In this document: in pieces, positions 2,998 through 53,815 of the stretch | Layout of the letters: every line of letters starts with the position of its first letter | How positions within the stretch are numbered: position 1 is the stretch's first letter | Source: Sulfuriroseicoccus oceanibius | GTDB taxonomy: Bacteria > Verrucomicrobiota > Verrucomicrobiia > Verrucomicrobiales > SLCJ01 | DNA: 64,000 nt | NCBI RefSeq assembly: GCF_010681825.2 | Contig: NZ_CP066776.1 | Location: 248,001-312,000 of the forward strand | Reading direction: 5' to 3' | Translations under genes and position numbers: made by a program | Notes under the pieces: generated by a model | Told to the model about the DNA's origin: nothing | The model's database searches: none | The model's input: only the letters and a program-made list of their open reading frames with translations

Positions 2998-3082
2998 CGT
3001 CGCGAAGCGACGCCTTACCGGCTAGCCTGCGGTTTCAACCGCAGGTCCCCACACCACCAAAACCACCTCGTCCCAACGGGAC
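2998..3082. repeat. Triple-hairpin intergenic element, copy 1
   Basis: Three consecutive perfect hairpins: CGTCGC-GAA-GCGACG (2998-3012), CCTGCGG-TTTCAA-CCGCAGG (3026-3045) and GTCCC-AAC-GGGAC (3070-3082). The first two are joined by the linker CTTACCGGCTAG. The same order of hairpins and the same linker recur near 30.9 kb, 31.25 kb and 45.6 kb with different stem sequences that stay paired. The element lies downstream of both flanking convergent genes. Confidence 0.8.
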
Positions 3083-3111
3083 GGTTTATCCGAATACCGA
3101 ATAACCAATCC

Positions 3112-8013: not shown

Positions 8014-8089
8014 TGGCGACCCGTACGGGACTCGAACCCGTGTTGCCGCCGTGAAAGGGCGGAGTCCTGGACCGCTAGACGAACGGGTC
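8014..8089 (-). tRNA. tRNA-Glu(UUC), copy 1
   Basis: The cloverleaf reads on the minus strand from GACCCGT (8089) to ACGGGTC plus discriminator G (8017), with CCA encoded (8014-8016). The anticodon stem is CCGCC/GGCGG with loop CTTTCAC, anticodon TTC. The T arm is ACGGG-TTCGAGT-CCCGT. The D arm is TCTAGCGGTCCAGGA. The gene is identical to copy 2 across the mature part. Confidence 0.97.
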
Positions 8090-8306: not shown

Positions 8307-8382
8307 TGGCGACCCGTACGGGACTCGAACCCGTGTTGCCGCCGTGAAAGGGCGGAGTCCTGGACCGCTAGACGAACGGGTC
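8307..8382 (-). tRNA. tRNA-Glu(UUC), copy 2
   Basis: Same sequence, anticodon (TTC) and encoded CCA (8307-8309) as copy 1; the offset between the two is exactly 293 bp. The duplicated unit includes the promoter, leader (CGTTTCGCAACGAACAT) and terminator, so each copy is a complete transcription unit. Confidence 0.97.
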
Positions 8383-30600: not shown

Positions 30601-30611
30601 GTTCGCTCGTA

Positions 30612-30690
30612 AACCGTCCCTTCGGGACGAGCCCCCATTGCTCTTTACTCCCGGAGGTTAAAACCTCCGGCTAACCGGTAAATCGTCGCT
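30612..30690. repeat. Hairpin cluster of the triple-hairpin family
   Basis: CGTCCC-TTC-GGGACG (30615-30629), CCGGAGG-TTAAAA-CCTCCGG (30651-30670) and, after CTAACCGGTAAAT, CGTCGC-TCC-GCGACG. These are the same three hairpins as at 2998-3082 in different order and with changed but still paired stems. Confidence 0.75.
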
Positions 30691-30703
30691 CCGCGACGGA
30701 ACA

Positions 30704-31000
30704 CCAACTCCGCCGACCTCTCTCTGAAAGCGAGCCTTATAACAGCTTGGGGCTCAGCGAGCCTCCGGCGAGCGCCACCCCAGGTTGCCTCGCCACCCCA
30801 TCCCCGGCCGAGCCTGCAGTTCCGCGATACCTGAGCCACCTCCCGACGGCCGCCCTCCCCACGCCGAAACACCGGAAGTTCGGACCGTTCCGCAACGCCG
30901 CACTCGCTCCATCGCGAAGCGATGGCTTACCGGCTAGCCTGCGGATTCATCCGCAGGTGGGAGTACACCAAACACCTCCGCGCCGTAGGTGCGGCTTACG
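30704..31000. repeat. Tandem intergenic repeat, unit 1 (about 340-bp period)
   Basis: Begins CAACTCCGCCGACCTCTC, then a CGCTGAAAGCG-like hairpin, GGGGCTCAGCGAGCCTCCGG, CAGTTCCGCGATACCTGAGC and ACCTCCCGACGGCCGCCCTC. It ends with CCATCGCGAAGCGATGG (30909-30925), the linker CTTACCGGCTAG and CCTGCGG-ATTCAT-CCGCAGG (30938-30957). The unit is repeated at 31048. Confidence 0.85.
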
Positions 31001-31047: not shown

Positions 31048-31340
31048 CCAACTCCGCCGACCTCTCGCTGAAAGCGAGCCTCATAACAGCCTGGGGTCAG
31101 CGAGCCTCCGGCGAGCGCCACCCCAGGTTGCCTCGCCCCCCCATCCCCGGCCGAGCCTGCAGTTCCGCGATACCTCAGCCACCTCCCGACGGCCGCCCTC
31201 CCGACGCCGAGACACCCCACGTCAGCACCATTCCCGAACGCATCGCCATCGCGAAGCGATAGCTTCCCGGTTAACCTTCGGATTCATCCGCAGGTGGGAT
31301 TACACCAAACACCCCCGCGCCGAAGGTGCGGTTTACCAGA
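31048..31340. repeat. Tandem intergenic repeat, unit 2
   Basis: A direct copy of 30704-31000 at roughly 90% identity, including CTCGCT-GAA-AGCGAG, CAGCGAGCCTCCGGCGAGCG, ATCGC-GAA-GCGAT (31248-31260) and the second hairpin with one mismatch (31275-31294). No gene is supported in 30543-31359. Confidence 0.85.
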
Positions 31341-45230: not shown

Positions 45231-45438
45231 TTACGACATCCTTTTGCCCCGGATCGCGGCGCTGCAGGATAAACACCCTCCAATCGCCGCCCCTTCAGGC
45301 AGCCATCGAATGCCCTCAGCCAGGAATGGCGCCAACTTAGGGTGCGTCGCAGTGTCTTGATCGGCCATCGTGAGGGAGCTGCGCCTTGGCGGCATCGTAC
45401 GCTCGGCCAAGGAAGGGCGGGCGGAGTTACCTGGGGGG

Positions 45439-45626
45439 GCGCTCGCCTGAGGCTCGCTGACCCCAGACTGGTATGAGACGCGCTTTCAGCGCGGCGTTGG
45501 GGGCTAGGTTAGTGCCATTCCCCTCAGTCACCTCCAAGAGGCCGTCGCGAAGCGACGCATTACAGCGTTAGCCGGAGGTTTCAACCTCCGGAACCAGATC
45601 AAAGAAAAACGCGTCCCGAAGGGACG
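45439..45626. repeat. Triple-hairpin family and tandem-unit family, inverted copy
   Basis: 45439-45500 is an inverted copy of the start of the 30704 unit (GCGCT-TTC-AGCGC at 45480-45492). It is followed by CGTCGC-GAA-GCGACG (45543-45557), a TTACAGCGTTAG linker, CCGGAGG-TTTCAA-CCTCCGG (45572-45591) and CGTCCC-GAA-GGGACG (45612-45626). The order and spacing of the three hairpins repeat those at 2998-3082. No gene is seen in 45231-45665. Confidence 0.8.
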
Positions 45627-53649: not shown

Positions 53650-53815
53650 GCGCGTACCTTCCCGTCCCGCAGGGGCGAATGCATGGAATCCGGTGAGAAC
53701 CCGGAACAGTTGCGCTGCGGTATCTGGCTACAAGCTCCCACAAATCCAATCCGGCTCACCCCGGGTGAAGGAGGGAGTGAGGTCTGAAGCCAGGAGTCCG
53801 AATACTTGTCTCGCC
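53650..53815 (+). promoter_or_regulatory. Cobalamin riboswitch
   Basis: The conserved core is clear: GGAATCCGGTGAGAACCCGG (53685-53704) with paired CCGG arms, then GTTGCGCTGCGGTA (53709-53722), the counterpart of GACGCGCAGCGGTAA in E. coli btuB. The B12 box GAAGCCAGGAGTCC lies at 53786-53799. A GC-rich P2-like arm (CCCGTCCCGCAGGGGCG) precedes the core. The outer P1 ends are not certain, so the limits are approximate. It faces the PEP-CTERM gene at 53900. Between them GCCCTC-CGCAATTT-GAGGGC (53870-53889) could hide the GAGGG ribosome site and act as the switch output. Confidence 0.93.

Follow-up and report, generated by a model that had tools for sequence, protein, structure and literature searches.

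A three-hairpin sequence that recurs between genes of Sulfuriroseicoccus oceanibius is very probably a composite REP-like DNA element, serving as the terminal module of a small transposable system that a subclass 1.2 Y1 (HUH) transposase operates. The gene-less copies are best read as solo ends of this single-stranded DNA (IS200-like/REP-like) mobile system, whose movement we infer. What is new is a REP-like three-hairpin partner, specific, testable and found in several phyla, for an HUH transposase subclass recorded without one. The element also accounts for a common, unannotated kind of repeat between genes in genomes of Verrucomicrobiota and Planctomycetota.

The window analyzed is a 64-kb stretch of DNA (bases 248001-312000 of the single 3,496,488-base contig). 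It contains five copies of the element, listed here with positions counted from the first base of the window and the hairpins abbreviated H1, H2 and H3.

2998-3090, + strand: triple-hairpin copy 1; single-strand fold z -4.5
2998-3012: H1 of copy 1, CGTCGC-GAA-GCGACG
3013-3025: tail and linker of copy 1, CCTTACCGGCTAG
3026-3045: H2 of copy 1, CCTGCGGTTTCAACCGCAGG
3046-3068: free spacer of copy 1
3069-3083: H3 of copy 1, CGTCCC-AAC-GGGACG
from 3084: tail after H3 of copy 1, GTTTATC
30608-30698, - strand: triple-hairpin copy 2, GTTAG variant; H2 CCGGAGG/CCTCCGG; 93.9 bits
30910-31000, + strand: triple-hairpin copy 3; H1 ATCGC; H3 CGCGCC/GGTGCG with a G-T pair; 93.6 bits
31247-31337, + strand: triple-hairpin copy 4, slightly worn; linker TTCCCGGTTAA; H2 mismatch; 82.5 bits
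45543-45633, + strand: triple-hairpin copy 5; H2 CCGGAGG/CCTCCGG; one extra linker base; 88.4 bits

The hairpins described in the original prediction are all present, but they belong to five copies rather than four; the reverse copy at 30.6 kb, which it had fused with the copy at 30.9 kb, is separate. Copies 3 and 4 lie within a tandem duplication of ~340 bp. Folded as single-stranded DNA, three of the window copies give z scores of -2.8 to -4.5. The five copies score 82-94 bits against our covariance model, values that are not independent because all five are in its training alignment (A1). The linker between H1 and H2, earlier called near-constant, matches TTACCGGCTAG exactly in two copies and varies in the other three (TTACCGGTTAG, TTCCCGGTTAA, TTACAGCGTTAG).

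Other features share the window. A second intergenic repeat (hairpins CGCTGAAAGCG, then CCTGGGG...CCCCAGG) adjoins triple-hairpin copies at 30750-30898, 31093-31241 and 45323-45503 (inverted), and may represent a further family of this kind. Further hairpin-core repeat families (e.g. GGGTCGGCATTCCTGCCGAC), not of the triple-hairpin type, occur in both orientations at 2.29-2.97, 22.9-25.3, 37.3-39.4 and 41.5-42.2 kb. A cobalamin riboswitch lies at 53685-53805, and two near-identical tRNA genes are found at 8017-8089 and 8310-8382 (- strand).

Each unit is ~90 bases long (91-93 in the window copies) and comprises three hairpins. H1 has the form CRTCGC, a 3-base loop and GCGAYG, and is followed by 2-3 bases and then TTACCGG[CT]TAG. 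H2 consists of CC, a variable stem, a loop and GG, and precedes a spacer of ~19-23 bases. H3 pairs CGTCCC with GGGACG, or CGCGCC with GGTGCG, around a 3-4-base loop and is followed by GGTTTACC. The TTAC tail of H1 recurs as the tail of H3. Among the 34 copies of the GCTAG group, the spacers are 32% identical, compared with 84% for H1 plus linker, 85% for H2 and 82% for H3. The hairpin modules are thus kept while the spacer is free to drift, which argues that the element is not merely passive filler. One earlier suggestion, a passive mobile repeat, is therefore half right: mobility fits best, as the unit flanks Y1 genes in many phyla, but passivity does not. Two subfamilies have conserved spacers as well, and both form mirror pairs.

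The covariance model (R1) was built from the 30 copies of alignment A1, all from this genome. A genome-wide scan with such a model had been proposed in the original prediction; it gave 103 matches at E<1e-4 in 62 loci of the 3.5-Mb genome (~100 copies at ~61 loci), many copies rather than few. A further scan, over 1.17 Mb of sequence, recovered zero additional copies in the regions between the known ones. As predicted, the unit occurs in both orientations, with + and - copies in the window and across the genome. In an alignment of 99 distinct copies fitted to the structure, 96.7% of pair cells are paired, compared with 85.0 ± 0.5% in shuffles. Changes on both sides of a pair occupy 229 cells (shuffles, 81 ± 6). 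The score for covariation reaches 0.301, compared with 0.101 ± 0.006 in shuffles; for each of these three measures the count was 0 of 500 shuffles. Sliding the structure as a control drops the paired fraction to 35-46%. Both sides vary in 11 of the 20 pairs, and a MAFFT alignment of 30 copies that did not use the structure agrees with the structure-fitted one (98.3% paired). The expectation that paired changes maintain the structure is thus borne out by strong two-sided covariation over the 99 copies. Most varying pairs swap one Watson-Crick pair for another with hardly any one-sided or G-U intermediates, and one stem of a subfamily carries a standing G-T pair. From this pattern we infer DNA hairpins copied as subfamilies, not RNA drifting via G-U.

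Gene contexts were assigned with a purpose-written ORF caller and scored at 61 loci. Convergent gaps hold 41 of these loci (67%) but 29% of intergenic bases (p about 6e-10), which upholds the earlier observation that copies fall mostly between convergent genes, and divergent gaps, with two of the 61 loci, are nearly avoided. Such placement, together with the retention of hairpins and linker despite spacer drift, is what would be expected if the hairpins in convergent gaps protected or defined the 3′ ends of mRNAs, with the link to a transposase one of origin only. This explanation is improbable, given that avoidance of promoter regions suffices to account for the location, that orientation is independent of transcription (three of nine co-directional solos read with the genes), and that varying pairs switch on both sides with so few G-U intermediates. 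An Rfam scan returned no family match at gathering threshold for these places, and a T-run is absent after every hairpin, which on sequence grounds rules out an intrinsic terminator. The same observations weigh against the structured RNA end offered as one possibility in the original prediction.

The preferred reading, a transposase-linked DNA element, draws on the genes that the copies flank. Pfam Y1_Tnp identifies seven places in the genome, three of them strong. The Y1 gene at 3196043-3196387 (- strand; Pfam Y1_Tnp E 1e-27) sits between copies at 3195853 (+) and 3196442 (-), with the H3 sides toward the gene, and its frame encodes 154 aa; the solved structures nearest to its product are IS200/IS605-type transposases, including the ISHp608 transposase. 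A second Y1 gene, at 3492522, is paired with a triple hairpin of its own, GCGCCGGAGGCGC-..CCAAC..AG-CCCAYGGC..GCCRTGGG-..-GCCCTGCAAGGGC-GGCA.AAC, with 30 H2 sites in the genome. The third, at 3231613, likewise has its own (CCTAGGGAC..GTCCCTAGG), with ~5 sites, nearly all at the gene. The REPtron trait of one repeat family per flanked tnpA gene is therefore present, with three families for three genes. The three tnpA genes of this type are divergent and single-copy, not several near-identical copies as in IS200/IS605; movement of the whole unit is therefore doubtful, and the hairpin parts alone may move, as in REPtrons. Next to the tnpA-flanking copy, at ~3.1953-3.1959 Mb of the genome, 7-base units (CCCACGT, then ACGCCAC) form an array of ~550 bp.

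Close mirror pairs of copies, 15 in the +- and four in the -+ arrangement, have their H3 sides facing, 14-26 bp apart, and look like the full unit minus its gene. The solos are not worn mirror pairs, an idea we ruled out because a partner remnant is present in only three of 35. Their spacers differ, and many copies are therefore old. The planctomycete Pan216 has eight +- pairs with identical spacing. Mirror-paired subfamilies also make up tandem ~400-bp arrays at 582031-582916 and 3178418-3179883 of the S. oceanibius genome.

To survey other genomes, we used the strict version of a hairpin detector that considers structure only. Two looser versions were set aside, one for its 116 chance matches in 640 kb and the other for finding 40 loci against 17 in a reversed control. 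At the level of the order, the strict detector found 25 units at 12 of 31 Y1 loci (100 kb). It returned 0 units from either control, 374 kb taken elsewhere in those genomes and 640 kb of random own sequence. An alignment of 12 proteins was then used to scan public genomes, yielding 80 named loci (257 kb) from Verrucomicrobiota, Planctomycetota, Acidobacteriota, Bacteroidota and others, with groups assigned from record titles. At these loci the strict detector identified 60 units, which lie at 34 of the 80 (Verrucomicrobiota 15/25, Planctomycetota 12/25, Acidobacteriota 2/12, Bacteroidota 1/9, others 4/9), compared with 0 of 80 in reversed sequence. R1, although trained on this genome only, gave 135 matches in the 257 kb of named loci and 0 in the 374-kb control. 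Within 170 nt of the gene and at 25 bits or more, 31 of 38 upstream matches are + and 37 of 41 downstream matches are -. Inward-facing R1 copies lie beside 39 of the 80 genes, and on both flanks of 27. At about half of the 80 loci, neither the strict detector nor R1 found a unit.

The tails of H1 and H3 agree within units, with a mean longest common stretch of 3.68 compared with 2.71 ± 0.16 after permutation (0 of 2000). The four bases before H2 in the 60 units are GTAG in 22, ATAG in 16, TTAG in 13 and CTAG in two, so that [N]TAG occurs in 53 of 60; class 2 RAYT REPtrons have GT[AG]G immediately 5′ of a hairpin. The tags of the outer hairpins, H1 and H3, are different ones and lie on the strand opposite the H2 tag, and the tails differ by family. 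This natural diversity, with an H1/H3 tail proper to each family, is a ready set for studying cut-site choice, a question that is open for REP enzymes.

We also examined the orientation of copies relative to replication. GC skew flips at ~0.49 Mb (origin) and ~2.22 Mb (terminus); dnaA lies at the contig start (739-945), though the GC-skew origin is ~0.49 Mb off. Among solos of the R1 family, 27 of 35 are on the C-rich strand, and gene direction does not explain this lean because it holds in convergent gaps (19 of 23). Solos of the second family away from tnpA lean likewise (13 of 15, some sites being assigned an orientation by their loop sequence or by comparison with near-identical composites), bringing the two families together to 40 of 50 (p 2e-5). 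A count of the exact TTACCGGCTAGCC motif (24 of 26) was dropped as evidence of orientation, since its C/T site follows strand composition (GCTAG 35/38, GTTAG 28/60) and inflates the figure. The replication-strand lean in this genome is real. With the solos on the C-rich strand, the complementary strand is the lagging-strand template, on which IS200/IS605 enzymes act (PMC6006769). What the lean means is unsettled, as planctomycete loci point the opposite way: in the complete Pan216 genome, five of five clear solo loci are on the G-rich strand.

This lean in two families, and the near-fixed spacing of mirror pairs, could also reflect a protein-binding site for chromosome organization that spreads by gene conversion and not by a transposase; such a role has been proposed for BIMEs with gyrase or IHF. 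We regard such a site as very unlikely, because each family tracks its own tnpA and R1 detects units beside genes of this type across unrelated phyla, and because the family is absent from a same-genus genome. Absence from sister species had been named in the original prediction as a point against the element itself; the one same-genus genome examined does hold zero copies of this family, and thus none for comparison, but relatives have different families of the same architecture.

We return to the end module of a transposable system and outline how it might work. In this reading the full unit is a triple hairpin, tnpA and an inverted triple hairpin, with the H3 sides toward the gene, and the genome contains one such unit of the window family plus ~100 gene-less copies (solos and mirror pairs). 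On the model of IS200/IS605 and TnpA-REP enzymes, the hairpins would fold when the DNA is single-stranded. The enzyme may then recognize a hairpin together with its tag, either the common H1/H3 tail or the [N]TAG before H2, cut at or near the tags and join the piece elsewhere, and gene-less ends and mirror pairs could spread by this route. A host function is not needed to explain the pattern, and the hairpins kept in old copies leave room for one. A broader proposal, which we advance tentatively and think somewhat more apt to fail than to hold, is that subclass 1.2 enzymes run a widespread single-stranded DNA dispersal system. Its fixed hairpin trio would be mirrored around the gene, the outer two hairpins sharing one variable tag and the central one bearing [N]TAG on the opposite strand, and solos would enter in an orientation set by the fork.

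The motifs DH-H, WQ and YI--Q--HH are invariant in the 12 aligned proteins, and by motif (DHVH, WQ, YIxxQxxHH, ~150 aa) the enzymes fall into subclass 1.2 of TnpA-Y1. Quentin et al. 2018 (Table 1) describe this subclass as ~148 aa with Y---Q--HH, DH[IV]H and WQ, mark it 'no' for REP, and place its members mainly in Cyanobacteria and Bacteroidetes (PMC6006769). Length and the motifs DH[IV]H, WQ and YI--Q--HH match the enzymes here; the difference is the repeat partner that many Verrucomicrobiota and Planctomycetota members have (34 of 80 loci by the detector, 39 of 80 by R1). A literature search limited to open-licence papers found no account of a repeat partner for subclass 1.2. A class 2 RAYT with an ordinary REP/BIME family of the GTAG type would account for the [N]TAG before H2, with GTAG the commonest form, and for the REP-like location and mirror pairing, but it is the least likely explanation and already contradicted by the enzyme motifs, which are Y---Q--HH and not the Y---NP of class 2 RAYTs (PMC6006769), by a score of 25 bits for the NCBIfam REP transposase model, whose cut-off is 80, and by a three-hairpin unit whose outer hairpins bear their tags on the opposite strand. 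The initial impression that the element matches no standard REP/BIME family is correct.

The module resembles several known systems in part. IS200/IS605 elements (subclass 1.1; IS608, ISDra2) share an HUH motif with a single Y and Q and have hairpins near both ends, and theirs are the nearest solved enzymes; however, the ends here are inverted three-hairpin modules rather than single hairpins in the same direction, and each family has one divergent tnpA, with ~100 gene-less copies for the window family. Class 3 TnpA-Y1 of Planctomycetes and Acidobacteria has high-copy REP-like structures that are atypical and CnGA-footed (PMC6006769), recalling tails such as CTGA, CCGA and CGGA in several families here, but its motif (Y----Q, NHVH, W[TA]) is absent from these enzymes. 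The GTAG and CGTC REP super-families (PMC3733652), the former known in the verrucomicrobium Opitutus terrae, are tagged stem-loops found mostly in convergent and unidirectional gaps. They form single stem-loops and dimers whereas the unit here has three hairpins, and the CGTC tag is unpaired and lacks a transposase whereas CGTC here lies within a stem. REPtrons, in which REPs or REPINs accompany a class 2 RAYT (PMC6006769, PMC8266576, PMC3116915), likewise have many intergenic hairpin repeats, a tetranucleotide tag, mirror pairs, one family per tnpA, flanking repeats and a preference for convergent gaps. The system described here differs from them in its class 1-like enzymes (Y---Q--HH), in a unit that is a fixed trio of hairpins, and in outer tags that vary between families.
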